Shown piece after piece: positions 23,790 to 35,548 of a stretch of 64,000 nt of DNA. Source of the stretch: Blattamonas nauphoetae (Eukaryota > Preaxostyla > Oxymonadida); the NCBI GenBank assembly GCA_033064195.1, contig JARBJD010000022.1, positions 310,001 through 374,000 of the forward strand, given 5' to 3'. How positions within the stretch are numbered: position 1 is the first letter of the stretch; the number at the start of each line of letters is the position of its first letter. Position numbers and translations under genes: made by a program. A model generated the notes under the pieces. The model was given only the letters and a program-made list of their open reading frames with translations, ran no database searches and was not told the DNA's origin.

Positions 23790-25449
23790 TCAATCGACTT
23801 TGTCGTGTCCAGCTTCCTTCTCTCTCCGTTCCTTCTCCCGCAAGAGTGCTTCTCTTTGGCGTTTGAGTTGTTCAATTTGTTCTTTTTCGTTCCTCCGCCG
23901 AATTTCTTCCAAACGTTCTTGTTTCTTCCTTTCCAATTCTTCTTTTCTTTCCTGTTCTTCCCTTTCCTCTTCTTCTTTTCTTCGTTTGAGTTGTTCTTCA
24001 ACCATGCGCATGATTTCCTTGTCTTCCTCTGTTTCTTTTGGTTTCGAATCGCATTTCAGAAGACATAATCCGATTGAGCCGAGGAAGACAATTGTGACAC
24101 TTAAAATGGTGACAGAGAATCGGACAGGATAGTCTCCAATAAGTGTCAATGTCACATCACCAATAATACTCATCTTTTGCTTGAAGGATTTTCCATCCAA
24201 TTGGCTAAGTTTCTCTCTCCTGCGTTTATTCTTGTCGATCAATTTCAGTCTCTGTTCTTCCTTTTCCTCTGCCAATGCCGTTGCTTTCCATCGCTCCCGT
24301 TCCGATTCAGCGTATGTAAGATTGTCCGTCATGAATAAATTTGTGATAAAAGCCCCCGATATTGAGCTATTCACTTCGATGGCGACGCCTGTGATTTGTC
24401 CGAGTTTGTATGGGTGTTTTACCGTGTAATATTCGTCATTAGGAATCAGTGGCTGTCTCCATGCACCTTTGTACTTTGGATTGGCCATCAGAGGCTGCTT
24501 CCATTGTCCTTGGTAGTTTGGATTCTTCTTCATCCTTCCATCCGTATAATCCTCGTCAATGATAAATTCTTCATCATCCCAATCAAGAGGTTTCGTTATG
24601 TCAGGGTCTGGGATTTCATACGGTTGATCCCAGTCATCTGGCTTTTTGGCCTTGAAATCAGGGACCATCTCCGGAGGCTGAATTGGAGGGATAAAATGCA
24701 TTTGTTGAAGAAGAGATCCTTGCTGTTCCACCTTATTATCGATCCACAAACGATATTCGTTGTTTGGAAGAAGAATAAGTCGGTAGAAGTGAGACTTTGA
24801 ATCGAGGTTTGGTTTTGCAGCGTTGATCAGCTTATGATACGTATATTTTTGTGTTTTGTTATTTGCCATACCGTAATAAAAGTATAACTTGAACAAATTT
24901 GGAAATAAGTGAAGGAATATACCTTGTTTGTATGTTTACATTTCTCTGCGCCAAACATCAATTTATACTGCGTTGTTGAATTAAGATGCATTGGTGAAAA
25001 GTCGTCATTGAGCAATTTCACAAAAACAGAGCCACACGACCATGGTTGGCGTTGAGCTTGCAGAACAAACTGGAGCTGTGAAGCGATTCTGAAAACACAC
25101 CTGTAAAATGAACATTCCTCGATCATGCGTGAAATTTGCGGGGCATGACACAGCTCCGATCGTGTTTGAGGACTTTGATACAACACCTTGGGAAATAAAA
25201 AAAGAGTTTTGGAGGAGTTCATGAAAATGGCAAAAAAACCGAAATCATGATCCTTTGGTGATGCATGCATTCTTTGTTCGATTGCCCATGTCGCATTGTA
25301 CTCAGATGAGTGGGACCGTCTCCAATAATCTCCAATCACCTGATTTTGAAATCTGTCTGAAAAGTAGATCTACAGAAAAATAAATTAGAAAAGATTGAGA
25401 AAAAACATACAGCTCCACGAATTAATGAGAAAAACGAGAGGACAAGCAT
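23790..25449 (-). CDS. CANX: Calnexin, ER lectin chaperone
   Basis: Calnexin holds monoglucosylated glycoproteins in the ER folding cycle. Exons are 25449-25411 (signal peptide MLVLSFFSLIRGA), 25369-24923 and 24887-23790; introns are 41 and 35 nt; 527 residues. The lectin domain has 'DHDFGFFAIF', 'SCGSVFVKLL' and 'YKLMFGAEKC'. The P-domain has type-1 motifs (KPDDWDQPYEIPDPD, KPLDWDDEEFI) and type-2 motifs (NPNYQGQWKQPLM, NPKYKGAWRQPLI), apparently two of each rather than the four of animals. A single membrane helix (RFSVTILSVTIVFLGSIGL) is followed by a cytosolic tail of about 90 residues that is almost wholly Glu/Arg/Lys helix. No KDEL-type or classical dilysine ending is seen. It is convergent with DRC3, with 149 bp between stops. 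Confidence 0.95.
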
Positions 25450-25607: not shown

Positions 25608-27082
25608 TCATGCTTGTGCGTTGGTATCCTCGTCCTTAACCATGGCTTCCTGTGTATCTGCTGTGGTTGCTTGGAGTTGATTGGCAGATACAGAGTCAGC
25701 TGACTGTTGTTGCTCCATGTCTGGATCTGTGGATGTCTGAGGAATTTGATTGTTCACTGTGCTCTGTTGTGGGGATGAAACATCTTTTAACATTTCAGTT
25801 TGCTCAGTTGTCGATTCAGAAGCTGGTTGGTCAATTTGGCTGCCTTGTATGTCAGGGATATCGTCGATTGACGGATCAACTTCGCCGGTTTCCTGGAAAT
25901 CGTCCTCTGTCTCGTTTTGTGCTGATGGCCGTTGTTCGAATGGTTCAATCGAATCAGAAACTCTGACGACCATAACACTGATATTGTCCATGCTTTGTTT
26001 GTCCTTTGCAATGGCGAGGAGTTTACTTGCAGCCTAAAAGGATAGGAACGATGATATCAAGAAGAAATCATACTGCTTGGCAATCATCGCGGTGCTCCAT
26101 GACAATTTCTCCTGCTTCTTGATCTTCAATGACATCCCAAACCCCATCGCACGCAACAATGACGTGAGTGACTCCTTGTTTGTTCATGACACGTCTGCTA
26201 ACATAAGGATCACTAATTACGGCTTGTTTGAGGCCATGATCACCAAGTGCACGAGAAACAGCCAAAACACCTAGATCGATAATTGTGAAGAGGAGAAAGA
26301 CCTGCGACACGTCCACGGATAACAAAACAATCTGCATTTTTAATTCGTTCAATTTCTGATTCTTGGGTCGGTTTATGATCTTGTGAAATTCGCTCTGTCT
26401 CCCAGTCATGACTTGATTGGAAAAAATGAACAATGAGACAATCGAATACACTAAAACTGCACGAGCATCGCCACAGTTCGCAGAAACAATTTCTACTGAT
26501 TCTTCGCCCTCAACAATTGTCCTTTTCACGGCAACAACTGCTGCGGTTGTTCCTGGTTGAGAAAATTCAAGATTTAGAGGATGAATGAGGGAAGATACCA
26601 TCCTCAAGAATGTTCGACTGTTTTAATTGGTCGTCTGTTGCAGCAAATGCGAGAGGAAGAATTTCAGAGAGATTTTTGTCAGGGTGTTTGAAAAGAAGTC
26701 GTGAAAAAATCTAATTGGACGAATATCATTAAAAAGAAGAATGAATCCAGAGAAAGCAGAGGAGTTTAGTGGGAATATAGAGAAGAAAGAAGAGATATGA
26801 TGCAAAGAAGAAGATGAGACTTTGTGGAAATTCATTGAGACGAAGTCGACGGTTTCGCGTCCTCCATGACCATCGTAAATGGCACAGATAGCAATGTTCT
26901 TCTCAGGTCCAATATTATCGTGAAAACAGTGGGCATCCTGAAATTAAGTTGATAAATTGAAAAAAAGAAGTCAGATAAAGGTCTCGAAAGGTGAAGACCT
27001 CCATTGTCCGTCGAAATCTAGGATTCAGTTCATCAGCAAAGCCAAATTGTTTAATTACAGGAGTGGGTGCGGCTTCTGCCAT
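25608..27082 (-). CDS. PP2C-type (PPM) Ser/Thr protein phosphatase, 7 exons
   Basis: Metal-dependent phosphatase. Exons: 27082-26999, 26937-26821, 26710-26599, 26552-26450, 26411-26302, 26270-26074 and 26033-25608. Introns are 61, 110, 46, 38, 31 and 40 nt; 382 residues with all phases consistent. Motifs in order: RFRRTMEDAHC, the metal-binding YDGHGG, DGTTAAVVAV, SANCGDARAVL, DHKPT, GVLAVSRALGDHGLK, VACDGVWDV and DNISVMVV. The catalytic Asp and Gly residues are all present, so the enzyme should be active. The last ~115 residues (from about 270) form an acidic Ser/Gln/Thr-rich tail without known motif, probably regulatory. Substrates cannot be told from the sequence. It is divergent from the XMAP215 gene across 150 bp. 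Confidence 0.95.
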
Positions 27083-27232: not shown

Positions 27233-30200
27233 ATGATGAGATGGGCCAATCAAATCAGATTCCTGTATCACCACAGGGAAGTTCTAAATCCACAAATGAC
27301 TGAAAGCAACCCAACTGGCGAAACGAAAGTGTCATTGACAACAGGCATGACGGAAGACGAAGCCCTGTCTATCCTGACGAACACATTTCTCAGTCCGATT
27401 GTGTGTGTACTGCTGAGATCGAAAGCACCAGGATCAGATGGGCAAGGAATGGTGGAGTTTCTGAGTGAGGAGGAATCGAAAGCAGAAGCAGAAGCATCAC
27501 TCCCTCGGGAGCACTCGATCCAAGACATCTTGAAAGAACTGTCGTCAAAAGACTGGAAAGTGCGGCAATCGGCAGTAGCAGCGCTGTTTTATGGAGTTGA
27601 GACGTTTGCGCGATGGAAGATTGGAGAAGGGAGTGGAGGGGCGTTGGATGGGGAGAGAGTGAGTCGAGAGATTTGCGAAGTGAGCGATGCGGCGATTCGA
27701 GAATGTCTGGTCCATCCGTCGCTGAAGGACTCGAATATTGGAGTATGTGCGTCGATCTTGAAGGGAGTTGGAGAATTGGGGCAATCGAGCATTGAAACCT
27801 CGCGCTCGAACAATCAACGGATTGTTTTCGTTTCGGAACGAGGAATTGGATCGCTGGTGAATTACAGTTTGGAGAAGATGAACGATGCGCGATGCAAGAG
27901 TGCGTCGCACGAACTGATGGATGTTGCGTGTATTCTTTATGGACCTGGATTTGTGATGGACCGCGCTTACAAGATCTGCCTTCAGCAAAAGACGCCGAAA
28001 GTTCAAGGGGAGATCACAAATTGGATTGTGAAGACAGTGAAGGGATTTGGGGGGAAGAGCGTGTCTCTGAAAGAATTATTTGGATTCATCACTCAAATTG
28101 CAGAATCTCGGGATGGGACAGTTCGAAATGGAGCGATTCAACTGTGTGTGGTTCAGATGCGATCACGCCCAGCGATCTTCGAGGGGATGCTTCGAAAGAT
28201 GGCGCAGCCGATTGTGCAAGCAGTTGAGAAACAACTCCAAAGTGAAGAAAGTGATGGAAATGAAGAAATTCTGACATTGGATCAACAATTGAGTGGGAAT
28301 GTTGGAAATGGAGGAGAGGAGATGGGAATGATGAAAGACGATGAAGAAGACTTGCTTGGACCTCGAAAAGACATCTCGAAGAAACTGGAAAAGTATCAAA
28401 AACAGTTTGGAGCGCAGAAATGGGAAGAGAAGAAAGCGGCGTTGAACGCATGCACGGAAATCATTCGGGAAACGAACAAACGATGTGCTGTGACAGGTCT
28501 GTCCGAATTTGCGAAGATTGTTGGACGCCATCTTGAAGAATCGAACAAGAATCTTGCGGCAGAGCTTGCTCGATTGATGGGACTTCTTGCTCAGAGTTGT
28601 GGAAGCGAGATTCACGAAATTGGTCGATTCGTGGTTCCGAAACTGTTCAAACTGCTTGGGGACTCTCAAACGCGAACACGCGAATGGACACTGGAAGCAC
28701 TTGACGAATGGGTTCTTCAAGTTGGATTGTGTCGAATGTTCTCGCAATGTGTTTCTGGGTTGCAGAAGCAAGAAAACCAATCAGGAAAGAAAGAGAGTCT
28801 CTCTTGGATGCTTCGTCAGATCATCCGAGTTCGAGATGTTGCGAGTGGAGCAGAGAAGAGGCCGAGTGTTGGGAAAGTGAGTTCTGTGAATGAATGTGAA
28901 GAAGGGCTTCGAGCGCTGGTTGCCGTTGTTGTTGAACGACTTCAAGATGGTCAGCTTGAGATTCGAAACCTGGCAGGAGATGTTGGAACAGAGATTGCTC
29001 GTCTGATTGGGATTGAACCGTTCTGGCCGATCTTCCAAGAACTGAAGCCCACGATCCAATCGAGTGTTCGTCCTCTCATCGACAAAATCGATCGCTCATC
29101 TCGCCTCCCACCCGCCCAACCCTCAACCCAAGCTTCATCCTCTGTCCCTCACAGCACTGCTCCTGCTGTCGTTGTTGAACCGTCGAAAGCTCATCCCAAA
29201 CAGATTCGTCCTCCGAAGACGTCGATGGACTCTAAACTCTCCCGAATGGCAGAGGTCTCATCAGCTCCAAAAGAGAAAGTGACTGAAAATGTGGCGATGC
29301 TCGTCGATGTCGAAGCAGCTGTGGAGAAAAGTGAAGGGGTGTCTTTAACCGCCGGGATGAATGAGGAACAGGCGCTGTCGATCCTGACGAACACATTTCT
29401 CAGTCCGATTGTGTGTGTACTGCTGAGATCGAAAGCACCAGGATCAGATGGGCAAGGAATGGTGGAGTTTCTGAGTGAGGAGGAATCGAAAGCAGAAGCG
29501 GAAGCATCACTCCCTCGGGAGCACTCGATCCAAGACATCTTGAAAGAACTGTCGTCAAAAGACTGGAAAGTGCGGCAATCGGCAGTAGCAGCGTTGTTTT
29601 ATGGAGTTGAGACGTTTGCGCGATGGAAGATTGGAGAAGGGAGTGGAGGGGCATTGGATGGGGAGAGGGTGAGTCGAGAGATTTGCGAAGTGAGCGATGC
29701 GGCGATTCGAGAATGTCTGGTCCATCCGTCGCTGAAGGATTCGAATATTGGAGTATGCGCATCGATCTTGAAGGGAGTTGGAGAATTGGGGCAATCGAGC
29801 ATTGAAACCTCGCGCTCGAACAATCAACGGATTGTTTTCGTTTCGGAACGAGGAATTGGATCGCTGGTGAATTACAGTTTGGAGAAGATGAACGATGCGC
29901 GATGCAAGAGTGCGTCGCACGAACTGATGGATGTTGCGTGTATTCTTTATGGACCTGGATTTGTGATGGACCGCGCTTACAAGATCTGCCTTCAGCAGAA
30001 GACGCCGAAAGTTCAAGGGGAGATCACAAATTGGATTGTGAAGACAGTGAAGGGATTTGGGGGGAAGAGTGTGTCTCTGAAAGAATTATTTGGATTCATC
30101 ACTCAAATTGCGGAATCTCGGGATGGGACAGTTCGAAATGGAGCGATTCAACTGTGTGTGGTTCAGATGCGATCACGCCCAGCGATCTTCGAGGGGATGC

Positions 30201-33200
30201 TTCGAAAGATGGCGCAGCCGATTGTGCAAGCAGTTGAGAAACAACTCCAAAGTGAAGAAAGTGATGGAAGTGAAGAAATTCTGACATTGGATCAACAATT
30301 GAGTGGGAATGTTGGAAATGGAGGTGAAGAGATGGGAATGATGAAAGACGATGAAGAAGACTTGCTTGGACCTCGAAAAGACATCTCGAAGAAACTGGAA
30401 AAGTATCAAAAACAGTTTGGAGCGCAGAAATGGGAAGAGAAGAAAGCGGCGTTGAATGCATGCACAGAAATCATTCGGGAAACGAACAAACGATGTGCTG
30501 TGACAGGTCTGTCCGAATTTGCGAAGATTGTTGGACGCCATCTTGAAGAATCGAACAAGAATCTTGCGGCAGAGCTTGCTCGATTGATGGGACTTCTTGC
30601 TCAGAGTTGTGGAAGCGAGATTCACGAAATTGGTCGATTCGTGGTTCCGAAACTGTTCAAACTGCTTGGGGACTCTCAAACGCGAACACGCGAATGGACA
30701 CTGGAAGCACTTGACGAATGGGTTCTTCAAGTTGGATTGGGTCGAATGTTCTCGCAATGTGTTTCTGGGTTGCAGAAGCAAGAAAACCAATCAGGAAAGA
30801 AAGAGAGTCTCTCTTGGATGCTTCGTCAGATCATCCGAGTTCGAGATGTTGCGAGTGGAGCAGAGAAGAGGCCGAGTGTTGGGAAAGTGAGTTCTGTGAA
30901 TGAATGTGAAGAAGGGCTTCGAGCGCTGGTTGCCGTTGTTGTTGAACGACTTCAAGATGGTCAGCTTGAGATTCGAAACCTGGCAGGAGATGTTGGAACA
31001 GAGATTGCTCGTCTGATTGGGATTGAACCGTTCTGGCCGATCTTCCAAGAACTGAAGCCCACGATCCAATCGAGTGTTCGTCCTCTCATCGACAAAATCG
31101 CCCATTCAATCAACGCCCCTTCGCGTCCAATCCCAACTGTTGCTGCCCCATCCGGAATTCGACCACCATCCATCCAGAAACCAACTCGAACATCGTCCCA
31201 AACTAAACCCGGAACAATCTCACCTCCTCCTCAGACATTCTCAGCAGCAGACCAACCCGTCGATGAGGTATTTTGTCCCGCCTCAACCAAACAATCGCGA
31301 CGACGAGAATGGAAAGACTTTCAGAACATCCTCCTTCAGAGCCCCAACGAAGCTGAATCAGCCTGTTCAGTCATTCTTCAGAATCAGTGTCTAGGAACCG
31401 CTATCTTCGACAGGCTCAACAACAAATCGTTCCAAATCCAGATTTCTGCCCTGAATGATATCATCTCCACCGGCTCGTCACAGCCCGATGTCTTTTTTGG
31501 ACTCTCAGACGTCTTCTTCCGCTGGTCCGCCTCAAAAATGCTTGCTCCTCATCCCAACCCACAACTGCTCAAAAGTGTTGGTGATTTAATTTTCGCTCTT
31601 CTTTCGGTCGGTGTTCTCAACACGGATCTCTCCAGATTCACTCAAAGCCCGGTTTGCCCTCCTTCTGATGTCGTCTGCAATATTTCTCCGGACGAGTTGG
31701 AGGTTTTGCTTCTCGCTTTCCATACAATGATCAATAAAAACCCTTCGAGTGTTCCTGGCTTCGTGATTGAGCTTCTGAGCATCGTCGTTTCGTTCATTTC
31801 ACCCAACACAACTTTCTCTCATCTCATCCCTTACTTCCAAACCACCAACAAGAAGAGTGGACGAACCCCTTCCATTCTCTTCTTCCAATGTGTTTCTTTC
31901 GCAGCCACCCTCCTCCCCCCTTCCAACAAAAAGGAACACAACCAAATTGTCAAAGAAGTGTGTGGATACTACACACACGCCTCGACAGATGTTCGGAAAG
32001 CCGCTCTGCTCCTCCTTTCGATGTATCTCGCAAACCCAACCCTCGTCGACGTGGCGAAACAACTTGGGTGGAAGAGCACATCCAGCATGGACGACGCAAA
32101 GAAACGGATCGAACAGCTCGAACGAACTTTGACGGAAAAGGAGAGGAGGGATCAGCCTGTCTACACTGGAGTGGTTCAATCCCAGCCAAAGCCAATCATT
32201 TCACAACCGTCCCAAAACCAAAATATGAATCCATTCTCCCAACCATCCCACACTTCAGTCCCACCGTCCCATCATACTCCCCAAATCCAACACAACACGA
32301 TGGCCAGCCCATTTCTCGCCCAACAGCCACAGCCTCTCTCGCTCGAAGCCGACTGGTCTGTCGAAGACTGGCAAATCCAATCTCGTCTCATCCTTCCAAA
32401 CGGCAACCCAACAACCATTCTCCAACTCCACAAAAAACTTGGCGTGCTCCAACAGAAAAACAGCAGCATGGTCGACAGTCTCGTGTCTGTCATTGTCGAC
32501 CCACTAACAATTGGGTTCCAAGCGGCATTTTCTGGACTCGTTGAAACAATCCACAGGTTGCCAGTTGCCGCGTTGCTCAGTCGACAGTTGAACGATCAGA
32601 ATGCGATGGTGGTTTTGGCAAACAGCATTCGACTGGCGAAGTATTCACTCAACTCTCTTCTCATCGTAAGCAACACGCCAACAAGAGGAAAGTTCATCAA
32701 TCAGGCACAATGCAAAGAAGTGTTCAAGATTCTCCTTTCGTCGTTGCTCAACCCAGCTCTGTCGGCTCTCGAAGATGGCGAGGCCAACCTTCTTCCACTT
32801 CTCAACAATGTCATGTTGCACGTCCTGGAACATGTTGAGCGGACGAATGCTTTCATCGTCCTGATCCAACTGTTGGACGAACTGGAACAGAACTCTGTCA
32901 ACATTTTCACTCCTACCGAACAAGAAATGAACTTCAAACTCTCTCAACTCACCACAAAATGCCTCACCAAGTTGAACAAAGCCCTTCCTCGCTCAATCCA
33001 AGACATCCAATTCAACAGACTCGTCCCAGTCCTCGACACCTTCCTTTTCTCTCACGCTGACGTCGAGTCTCCTGGTGACGGAAGCCTTGTCGCCAAACTC
33101 CGCTTCAACCACGTCAGCCTCCTCAAGACCATCCTCATCAATCTGGTCACATGCTCTCCTTCGAAGGGAATTGACATTGTTCGGGCACTCCCAAATTGTC

Positions 33201-34090
33201 AGCGGAATCCTCCGGCGATGCTGGCCTCGTTGAGAGGGATTGTGAAGAGAGTAAGCGGGTCTGACGGTGTGGCTGAGATGGATCAGATCTGTCGGAACGA
33301 GTTTGGATGGGATGATCTCATCAGCGACATCATCACAAGCGAGGCCAAACGAAGGGTCGAGTCAGTCGGTGGACAATCTTTCCCAACCACCCAACCACAA
33401 ATTATTCCCAATCTCCATTCAAATGTCATCCCACCACAATCTCAGACAGGACAACCTCCCACCACGTCTCCGATGGCTGCTCCAGTGAACCGAAGTGCCG
33501 CCCTTAATGAGCAATTTGCACAAATCAAATCGATGACCGAACAAACCCTTATTTCGAGAGACTCACTCAACCAACCAATAAACCCATCGACTCAATCTCA
33601 TCAATCGGAGCAAGGTCAAGCACATCCCCAAATTCCTTCATTTCTTTTGTGGAAGGATGATTTGGGACAGAAAATTCTACCAAGTGATGGACAGGCCGCG
33701 GATTTTGTTGCTCTCATGAATCTGGTCATCTCAGACACCCCCAATTCTCTCGAACAACTCTATCAATATGTCAAGACCAACAGCGATGTAATGTGGGATG
33801 CAGTAATCAACACTCCAGCCGAACAGGCACAGGCAGGGATTGCACAGCGGTTGCTTTTCGAGTTGTGGGTCAAGGAGCAGGAATCACAAATGGATCAAAA
33901 CGCATTTATAGGAGTTGCCCAACTTAATCATGTGTCGGATGGAGTATACCATGAAGGGAGCGAGGGAATATTAGAGAAAGATGATGCGGCTGAGGATACA
34001 ACGCAATATGGAGTTGCTGCTCCAACTGATCAAAATCGAATTGCTCGACTGGATCAGATGGCGCAAATGTTGGCTCAACTCACTCAATAG
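27233..34090 (+). CDS. CKAP5: XMAP215/CKAP5/Stu2 family microtubule polymerase with duplicated TOG pair
   Basis: Family members use TOG domains to load tubulin at microtubule plus ends and centrosomes. One frame of 2,285 codons; starts at 27233 or 27296 (MTESNPTGE) are possible. Residues about 40-620 hold two TOG domains ('SSKDWKVRQSAVAAL'; 'FGAQKWEEKKAALNA', the counterpart of KKWQERKEAL in human TOG2). They are repeated almost identically at about 710-1290. A divergent TOG follows ('RLNNKSFQIQISALNDI'). The C-terminal helical region matches human CKAP5: 'LPLLNNVMLHVLEHVERTN', 'LTKLNKALPRSIQDIQFNR', 'NSLEQLYQYVKTNSD'. Linkers are Ser/Pro/Gln-rich. Five TOG domains is normal for animal members, but here two arise from a duplication kept at about 99% nucleotide identity. 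Confidence 0.9.
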   Translation: MMRWANQIRFLYHHREVLNPQMTESNPTGETKVSLTTGMTEDEALSILTNTFLSPIVCVLLRSKAPGSDGQGMVEFLSEEESKAEAEASLPREHSIQDILKELSSKDWKVRQSAVAALFYGVETFARWKIGEGSGGALDGERVSREICEVSDAAIRECLVHPSLKDSNIGVCASILKGVGELGQSSIETSRSNNQRIVFVSERGIGSLVNYSLEKMNDARCKSASHELMDVACILYGPGFVMDRAYKICLQQKTPKVQGEITNWIVKTVKGFGGKSVSLKELFGFITQIAESRDGTVRNGAIQLCVVQMRSRPAIFEGMLRKMAQPIVQAVEKQLQSEESDGNEEILTLDQQLSGNVGNGGEEMGMMKDDEEDLLGPRKDISKKLEKYQKQFGAQKWEEKKAALNACTEIIRETNKRCAVTGLSEFAKIVGRHLEESNKNLAAELARLMGLLAQSCGSEIHEIGRFVVPKLFKLLGDSQTRTREWTLEALDEWVLQVGLCRMFSQCVSGLQKQENQSGKKESLSWMLRQIIRVRDVASGAEKRPSVGKVSSVNECEEGLRALVAVVVERLQDGQLEIRNLAGDVGTEIARLIGIEPFWPIFQELKPTIQSSVRPLIDKIDRSSRLPPAQPSTQASSSVPHSTAPAVVVEPSKAHPKQIRPPKTSMDSKLSRMAEVSSAPKEKVTENVAMLVDVEAAVEKSEGVSLTAGMNEEQALSILTNTFLSPIVCVLLRSKAPGSDGQGMVEFLSEEESKAEAEASLPREHSIQDILKELSSKDWKVRQSAVAALFYGVETFARWKIGEGSGGALDGERVSREICEVSDAAIRECLVHPSLKDSNIGVCASILKGVGELGQSSIETSRSNNQRIVFVSERGIGSLVNYSLEKMNDARCKSASHELMDVACILYGPGFVMDRAYKICLQQKTPKVQGEITNWIVKTVKGFGGKSVSLKELFGFITQIAESRDGTVRNGAIQLCVVQMRSRPAIFEGMLRKMAQPIVQAVEKQLQSEESDGSEEILTLDQQLSGNVGNGGEEMGMMKDDEEDLLGPRKDISKKLEKYQKQFGAQKWEEKKAALNACTEIIRETNKRCAVTGLSEFAKIVGRHLEESNKNLAAELARLMGLLAQSCGSEIHEIGRFVVPKLFKLLGDSQTRTREWTLEALDEWVLQVGLGRMFSQCVSGLQKQENQSGKKESLSWMLRQIIRVRDVASGAEKRPSVGKVSSVNECEEGLRALVAVVVERLQDGQLEIRNLAGDVGTEIARLIGIEPFWPIFQELKPTIQSSVRPLIDKIAHSINAPSRPIPTVAAPSGIRPPSIQKPTRTSSQTKPGTISPPPQTFSAADQPVDEVFCPASTKQSRRREWKDFQNILLQSPNEAESACSVILQNQCLGTAIFDRLNNKSFQIQISALNDIISTGSSQPDVFFGLSDVFFRWSASKMLAPHPNPQLLKSVGDLIFALLSVGVLNTDLSRFTQSPVCPPSDVVCNISPDELEVLLLAFHTMINKNPSSVPGFVIELLSIVVSFISPNTTFSHLIPYFQTTNKKSGRTPSILFFQCVSFAATLLPPSNKKEHNQIVKEVCGYYTHASTDVRKAALLLLSMYLANPTLVDVAKQLGWKSTSSMDDAKKRIEQLERTLTEKERRDQPVYTGVVQSQPKPIISQPSQNQNMNPFSQPSHTSVPPSHHTPQIQHNTMASPFLAQQPQPLSLEADWSVEDWQIQSRLILPNGNPTTILQLHKKLGVLQQKNSSMVDSLVSVIVDPLTIGFQAAFSGLVETIHRLPVAALLSRQLNDQNAMVVLANSIRLAKYSLNSLLIVSNTPTRGKFINQAQCKEVFKILLSSLLNPALSALEDGEANLLPLLNNVMLHVLEHVERTNAFIVLIQLLDELEQNSVNIFTPTEQEMNFKLSQLTTKCLTKLNKALPRSIQDIQFNRLVPVLDTFLFSHADVESPGDGSLVAKLRFNHVSLLKTILINLVTCSPSKGIDIVRALPNCQRNPPAMLASLRGIVKRVSGSDGVAEMDQICRNEFGWDDLISDIITSEAKRRVESVGGQSFPTTQPQIIPNLHSNVIPPQSQTGQPPTTSPMAAPVNRSAALNEQFAQIKSMTEQTLISRDSLNQPINPSTQSHQSEQGQAHPQIPSFLLWKDDLGQKILPSDGQAADFVALMNLVISDTPNSLEQLYQYVKTNSDVMWDAVINTPAEQAQAGIAQRLLFELWVKEQESQMDQNAFIGVAQLNHVSDGVYHEGSEGILEKDDAAEDTTQYGVAAPTDQNRIARLDQMAQMLAQLTQ
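27371..29090 (+). repeat. TOG-pair repeat, copy 1 (1,720 nt)
   Basis: First copy of a direct repeat inside the XMAP215 gene, offset exactly 2,010 nt (670 codons) from copy 2. I counted 16 mismatches and no length differences; only two change the protein (Asn/Ser near 28260 and Cys/Gly near 28730). Similarity ends abruptly at both edges. Confidence 0.95.
29381..31100 (+). repeat. TOG-pair repeat, copy 2 (1,720 nt)
   Basis: Second copy. The linker between copies (29091-29380, about 97 codons) is unique Ser/Pro-rich sequence. The 42 nt just upstream of each copy encode nearly the same peptide but differ at 14 positions, half of them synonymous, in contrast to the ~99% identity inside. Confidence 0.95.
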
Positions 34091-34216: not shown

Positions 34217-35548
34217 ATGCTCCAGCTCGTTCTTGTTCTTTCTTCATCGATTTTCTGTTGGAACTCTCCTGCTGAATGTGTTCTTGCTTTCGGTTCGCGT
34301 GATAACGACCGCTGCATTGATATATCACCATGCCACTCCTTAGATCAAATTTTTGATGGACGAATCAACCTCACTGAAACACGAGATATTAAAATTACTG
34401 ATGTTGGATGTCTGGTGGACGAAATTACCATCGATGGAGAGAAACTCGCTTCTTTTCACCTCCCTAACGCTGGATCTGTAGAACTCAACATCCATGGAGG
34501 ACAACTCTATGGTTCAGGGACCATTGTCCTTACCAGTAATGAAACACATAATTTACATGTGAATTTCTTATCACTAGGAGGTGGAACACCAACAATCTTC
34601 TCATCGCGAAAGCCAAACAACAACAAAAAAGCAGACTATTTCATTCGAATCTGCAAGTATGCGTATCTCTCTGGAAGTATGGTATTCATGCCACTCGGAA
34701 AATCCTTCCCTGCCTTTGCTCCTGTTACGAAGCCCCCAGCACATTCTGCCTTTGGTGGTGGGAAAGGTGCAGTATGCGTGGATGGAGGTCATCTTCAGAG
34801 TTACCACATTGAAAATCACGACCCCGAACTTGAAAACGTGTATATTAAAGATGGATCGGCCTTCACTGCCGCCACTCCCTTCGTATTCGATGTCAATGAA
34901 CGATCACAAGGCTCAACAGATATTCAGCAACTCACATGCTTTGGCCCAGACAGTATTCCACATATTAAAATTGCCGGTGTCATCCACGATACACAACCAA
35001 TTAATATCGTCAACACCGGAAAATGTCACATTCGTTATGTGGAGGGAACATACGATGAAACTGAAGAAAAGACAACATATAAGCTGGTCGACACCACAAC
35101 TCATATTCAAAAATCTCCCAATTTGGGCAAAATAAAACCTCTCGAACCCGCCGTCTCTGTCTCTTCCATCGATATCAAAGACAAAACTGCCATCCAACCC
35201 GTCTCCCCACTCAAACAATCGAAATATGTGATGGTTAAGATTGGATCAAGCGACGTCAATGCTTTCTATGCGTCGACAGCCACAGAAGCTATTTCAGTTT
35301 CCATAAAACCTCGAAGCTTCGAAAAAGACTACGAAGATGTCAAAAAAGACGACTGGATCAAACTAACTCCTTATGTTGGAAGAGAAAGAGCTGACGCATA
35401 TCTCCCAACTACGTACGATAATATTATTGGCAGTGGATCATCCCTCGCATTCGTTATTGAAAGAAAAAAACTTCCAGAAGCAGAATGGTATCAGATCAAA
35501 GTCGATGGCTTCCTTACACCTGTACGAATCGAACATCAACTTATCTAG
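34217..35548 (+). CDS. Secreted protein of unknown function
   Basis: One 443-codon frame. Residues 1-24 form a plausible signal peptide (MLQLVLVLSSSIFC, then a small-residue site near PAECVLA). The mature part is rich in beta-branched residues, Thr, Gly and Ser, with several N-glycosylation sequons (for example NLT and NET) and scattered Cys. This fits an extracellular beta-helix or beta-sandwich. No membrane segment or anchor follows. I recognise no family. The C-terminal part (about 290-443) has an Ile-Lys-Pro-rich, perhaps separate domain ending EHQLI. Its stop lies 126 bp from the convergent DENN gene. Confidence 0.65.
   Translation: MLQLVLVLSSSIFCWNSPAECVLAFGSRDNDRCIDISPCHSLDQIFDGRINLTETRDIKITDVGCLVDEITIDGEKLASFHLPNAGSVELNIHGGQLYGSGTIVLTSNETHNLHVNFLSLGGGTPTIFSSRKPNNNKKADYFIRICKYAYLSGSMVFMPLGKSFPAFAPVTKPPAHSAFGGGKGAVCVDGGHLQSYHIENHDPELENVYIKDGSAFTAATPFVFDVNERSQGSTDIQQLTCFGPDSIPHIKIAGVIHDTQPINIVNTGKCHIRYVEGTYDETEEKTTYKLVDTTTHIQKSPNLGKIKPLEPAVSVSSIDIKDKTAIQPVSPLKQSKYVMVKIGSSDVNAFYASTATEAISVSIKPRSFEKDYEDVKKDDWIKLTPYVGRERADAYLPTTYDNIIGSGSSLAFVIERKKLPEAEWYQIKVDGFLTPVRIEHQLI

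Follow-up and report, generated by a model that had tools for sequence, protein, structure and literature searches.

A tandemly repeated TOG3-TOG4-class domain pair with a homogenised core in the XMAP215-family gene of Blattamonas nauphoetae

The single-celled flagellate Blattamonas nauphoetae, an oxymonad, carries an XMAP215-family gene in which a pair of TOG domains occurs twice in nearly identical form. We analyzed this gene in a stretch of 64,000 nucleotides (nt) of the genome (contig JARBJD010000022.1 of GCA_033064195.1, positions 310,001 to 374,000 of the forward strand; hereafter the window), where it forms a single open frame on the plus strand (27296..34090) whose 2264-residue translation is identical to P0001, the entry listed in the protein database; starting at an ATG further upstream, at 27233, would lengthen the frame to 2285 residues. 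The gene probably encodes an XMAP215/Dis1-type polymerase from which TOG1-TOG2 is gone and in which the core of an old TOG3-TOG4 tandem duplication was later homogenised by gene conversion or by cycles of unequal crossing-over.

The homogenised block spans 27371..29090 in copy 1 and 29381..31100 in copy 2, both on the plus strand. Direct comparison at the offset of 2,010 nt revealed mismatches at 16 of 1,720 positions, 14 of which are silent (P = 9e-8 under random point changes) and 14 of which are transitions; two alter the protein, Asn/Ser at 28260 and Cys/Gly at 28730. An earlier inspection of the window made without database searches (hereafter the sequence-only reading) had given the same length, offset and counts. 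The silent divergence (dS) of the core is 0.036 and low throughout, the replacement divergence (dN) is 0.0015, and the TOG3-TOG4 pairs within the protein are alike at 571 of 573 residues. Because silent changes and transitions each account for 14 of the 16 differences, we regard the copies as real sequences under purifying selection rather than as products of read errors, and random sequencing error was dropped as the source of the differences. Both copies thus seem to have retained their function since homogenisation.

The 42 nt upstream of each block tell of a different age. The flank of copy 1 (27329..27370, plus strand, VSLTTGMTEDEALS) and that of copy 2 (29339..29380, plus strand, VSLTAGMNEEQALS) have diverged at 14 of 42 positions, seven of these being the lone, silent change in their codon, and encode nearly the same peptide, as the sequence-only reading had also counted. 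The two peptides are identical at 10 of 14 residues, in register, whereas among 2,000,000 random pairs of 14-residue segments of this protein, with overlapping and in-register pairs passed over, none reached 9 identities. We therefore consider the flanks of both copies homologous. Their silent sites are saturated (9.5 of 10.7 differ), and the silent divergence of the core lies far below that of this homologous flank (Fisher P = 6.6e-13), the pattern of concerted evolution. The motif is no general feature of TOG pairs, since in eight reference proteins the regions before TOG1 and TOG3 match it, or one another, at no more than 6 of 14 residues at any offset. The low dS throughout the core, together with a sequence that is essentially unalignable beyond the 42 nt, would fit a recent single tandem duplication without conversion, the likeness of the flanks being due to chance or selection; this is very unlikely, because flanks that are in register and saturated at silent sites require two ages. 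As the flanks are homologous yet saturated and the core is nearly uniform, an old duplication followed by later homogenisation accounts for both.

The borders of the block are sharp to about one base at either end, as the sequence-only reading had proposed. On the left, the final mismatch at 27370 is followed by 119 bases without any; on the right, the terminal 360 bases of the block (28731-29090) are free of mismatches, which start at 29091. We do not claim a second tract from this 360-nt run, given a permutation P of 0.36 for 16 randomly placed differences. At the same offset of 2010, 17 of 30 positions are mismatched in the bin directly after the block (29110-29139), and 19-29 per 30-nt bin away from the block borders. 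The linker between the pairs (29091..29338, plus strand; net charge +1 over 83 residues) aligns with the sequence after copy 2 no better than shuffled sequences do (score 17 against a shuffle mean of 18). The sequence-only reading had explained the repeat as an older duplication whose core was overwritten by gene conversion. The old duplication and the later homogenised core stand; the mechanism is less certain, since repeated unequal crossing-over would give a similar picture. If the array had passed through at least three units and back, exchange would have homogenised the core while the linkers and edge flanks stayed fixed, leaving the same pattern. Edges this sharp are explained more simply by one conversion tract, and such an expansion and contraction is rather unlikely; we infer gene conversion as the agent of homogenisation.

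Polishing of long-read assemblies with long and short reads can blend near-identical copies. The published B. nauphoetae genome was assembled by Canu from Nanopore reads and polished with Nanopolish and short-read Pilon with a Merqury completeness of 98.24% and a BUSCO score of 76.6% (PMC10703272). The copies could accordingly have been collapsed, expanded or falsely homogenised in assembly or polishing. However, the excess of silent differences is hard to reconcile with such an artefact, and the upstream flank, the linker and the downstream flank are three distinct sequences in one open frame; a one-copy gene would offer no source for the linker. We consider an artefact extremely unlikely, and the second copy expanded by assembly, which the sequence-only reading had allowed for, is improbable on the same grounds. 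Possibly the real copies exceed two, or polishing blended them in part. The G+C content of the window is 0.39-0.49 in 2-kb steps, and no further direct-repeat family was reported in it (minimum length 60, seed 14). A search of the whole assembly (88.3 Mb, 837 contigs) with the DNA of the entire gene returned no locus besides the gene itself; this and the other genome searches score best candidates only.

The class of the repeated domains changes how the duplication is read. We assign the pair to the TOG3-TOG4 class rather than to TOG1-TOG2, firmly for the second domain (TOG-B) and by profile, BLAST and fold for the first (TOG-A). The best matches of TOG-A and TOG-B were XMAP215 TOG3 and TOG4, ahead of CLASP TOGs. 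TOG-A lies at 27494..28249 in copy 1 and 29504..30259 in copy 2, and TOG-B at 28349..29089 and 30359..31099, all on the plus strand. The class was tested on copy 2, by BLAST, profile and fold for both domains and in the tree, where TOG-A is weak; the TOG-A protein of copy 1 is identical to that of copy 2, and TOG-B of copy 1 was placed in the tree together with its counterpart. Profiles were tested with all eight references, six for TOG5, and the control domains were delimited from alignments to the plants, so that the control is not wholly independent. The tree used six of the eight references, two TOG5 cut-outs (P0007 and P0008) being omitted as short and doubtful. Two AlphaFold predictions were made from 9-row alignments, the second of them weak (mean predicted local distance difference test score 51).

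The grouping of TOG-A with TOG3 in the tree is weak (64/62), and a placement of TOG-A with TOG1 is not rejected. When the whole 980-residue model was searched with Foldseek, solved TOG1-TOG2 arrays came out on top (6mze and 6mzf made up six of the top seven chains, 6mzg the other), and XMAP215 TOG4 chains followed, mixed with generic HEAT-repeat proteins. We did not use this search for the class because it favours two-domain chains.

The pairs are followed by a Ser/Pro-rich linker (31101..31330; net charge +5 over 77 residues), a strongly diverged TOG5-like domain (31331..32095) and a C-terminal region (32366..33265), all on the plus strand. The TOG5-like domain was matched to TOG5 by visual alignment and by its place in the tree but not by profile (1.3 bits), and its support from PDB structures is weak. 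Part of the C-terminal region aligns to plant MOR1 (residues 1773-1917 against 1530-1675 of MOR1; 31.5% over about 145 residues, 62 bits, E = 5e-12). The TOG classes in family order, with TOG5 placed by the tree, and the C-terminal region shared with MOR1 assign the protein to the XMAP215/Dis1 family; by its order, TOG3-TOG4-TOG5-C-terminal region, it is an XMAP215 by descent, which bears out the identity given by the sequence-only reading. That reading had counted four TOGs in two identical pairs. The two pairs hold, but the array looks like TOG3-4-3-4-5 and probably has five TOGs. Since the pair is TOG3-TOG4, TOG1-TOG2 is undetected and a TOG5-like domain follows, what looked like the duplication of a pair reads, biologically, as replacement of the array's front.

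TOG1 and TOG2 were sought in the whole assembly with Chara sequences. The TOG3 and TOG4 queries retrieved the XMAP215 gene (E = 5.2e-9 and 3.3e-11), the best E value for TOG1 was 2.62, and TOG2 had no match. BLAST, profiles and these genome queries thus speak against a canonical, TOG1-TOG2-bearing member of the kind described for yeast and metazoans (PMC6251626), although the tree does not reject TOG-A with TOG1. A TOG1-2 gene too diverged for a single query sequence may possibly lie elsewhere in the genome. Upstream exons with TOG1-2 were rejected because an apparently intron-split PP2C phosphatase gene (26068-27082, minus strand) is transcribed away from the XMAP215 gene, the two start codons lying about 0.2 kb apart.

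If the front of the array was replaced, TOG1-TOG2 might have been overwritten in place by a TOG3-TOG4 copy instead of being lost first; four TOGs still precede TOG5, as in canonical members. Against this, the flanks of the two copies, which lie outside the TOG fold, are closely related (10 of 14 residues in register), whereas the sequences preceding TOG1 and TOG3 in the references share at most 6 of 14. Overwriting in place is thus quite improbable. We favor a course in which the ancestral TOG1-TOG2 pair would have been lost and the TOG3-TOG4 pair duplicated in tandem long ago; the linkers and the 14-codon flank would then have diverged, the 1.7-kb core would later have been made uniform by gene conversion (or unequal crossing-over cycles), and both copies would since have been under strong purifying selection. 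The gene also offers a clean candidate case of concerted evolution acting between the domains of a single housekeeping gene.

Two Pfam TOG families score at the XMAP215 gene and at two further loci of the assembly, which hold TOG-type genes on C833 and C63 (L009, 3281-6208, and L006, 244-2310; minus strand). Both look like CLASPs (CLASP_N, 98.5 and 71.1 bits) and score at most 18.2 bits with the TOG1-5 profiles, and a second XMAP215 gene at these loci was rejected; the C833 gene, for which the PDB comparison was made, also resembles CLASP2 and CLASP1 structures. CLASP proteins have TOG arrays too, but CLASP_N scores barely above its cut-off on TOG-B (29 bits) and fits these separate genes far better. 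No close relative of the XMAP215 protein was found in protein searches, which listed 8, 2 and 1 proteins, the first always being the protein itself, and plasmid records gave no match. Elsewhere in the window, a Calreticulin-family frame (23790-24896, minus strand) extends through a hydrophobic segment to a highly charged tail and is calnexin-like by eye, and a 443-codon open frame directly downstream of the XMAP215 gene (34217-35548, plus strand) had no Pfam match at a threshold of E 0.001.

The first-loop Trp is retained in TOG-A, TOG-B and the six aligned references, and the last-loop Arg in TOG-A, TOG-B, all six reference TOG4s and four of six reference TOG3s, the remaining two having Lys; we take both residues to act in tubulin contact. 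We infer tubulin binding and polymerase activity of the protein. The two TOG3-TOG4 pairs would carry up to four tubulin dimers to the plus end, and the TOG5-like domain and the linkers would hold the lattice, a role proposed for the last metazoan TOG (PMC7773332). The activity would then depend on TOG number, not on TOG1 or TOG2 identity. TOG-A and TOG-B each contain insertions of about 17-21 alignment columns (27494-29089 and 29504-31099) that are found in none of the six aligned references. The C-terminal tail (residues 1991-2264; 33266-34087) has a net charge of -20, and the protein has two weak matches to EB-binding SxIP-like motifs.

The order of TOG3, TOG4, TOG5-like domain and C-terminal region is that of the five-TOG polymerases XMAP215, ch-TOG, Msps and MOR1; unlike these, the Blattamonas gene has TOG3-TOG4 twice and TOG1-TOG2 undetected. 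TOG3 is related to TOG1 and TOG4 to TOG2 (PMC6251626), and TOG3-TOG4 is therefore a plausible stand-in for TOG1-TOG2. Since the architecture of XMAP215 TOG4 is orthogonally bent (PMC6641166), an array with TOG4 doubled may touch the microtubule differently. Yeast Stu2 and Alp14 likewise act with two identical pairs, because each subunit of the homodimer contributes one TOG1 and one TOG2 (PMC6251626, PMC5999394); the Blattamonas pairs, in contrast, are near-identical, in one chain and of TOG3-TOG4 class. In the engineered Stu2 variants TOG1-TOG1 and TOG2-TOG2, one class was swapped for a copy of another and both were active polymerases (PMC5999394), whereas the Blattamonas array is natural and evolved and would replace a whole pair.

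In the open-licence literature searched, we found no report of a TOG3-4-3-4-5 array and no paper on XMAP215 in oxymonads; for XMAP215 together with gene conversion, titles and abstract openings disclosed no paper on homogenised TOG pairs. The array may serve as a natural experiment on how TOG arrays work, the counterpart of the one-kind Stu2 variants. Polymerase activity has been reported not to need different kinds of TOG (PMC5999394), and the opposing model has TOG1 anchoring and TOG2 polymerising (PMC6251626). A living cell in which the sole detected XMAP215 is without the TOG1-TOG2 class would put these two views to a natural test. We tentatively raise a further idea, which we hold as somewhat doubtful: a natural polymerase without TOG1-TOG2 classes whose two identical TOG3-TOG4 pairs stay uniform through ongoing conversion, in which case the sameness of the pairs would itself be selected and the special anchoring role of TOG1 would be dispensable.
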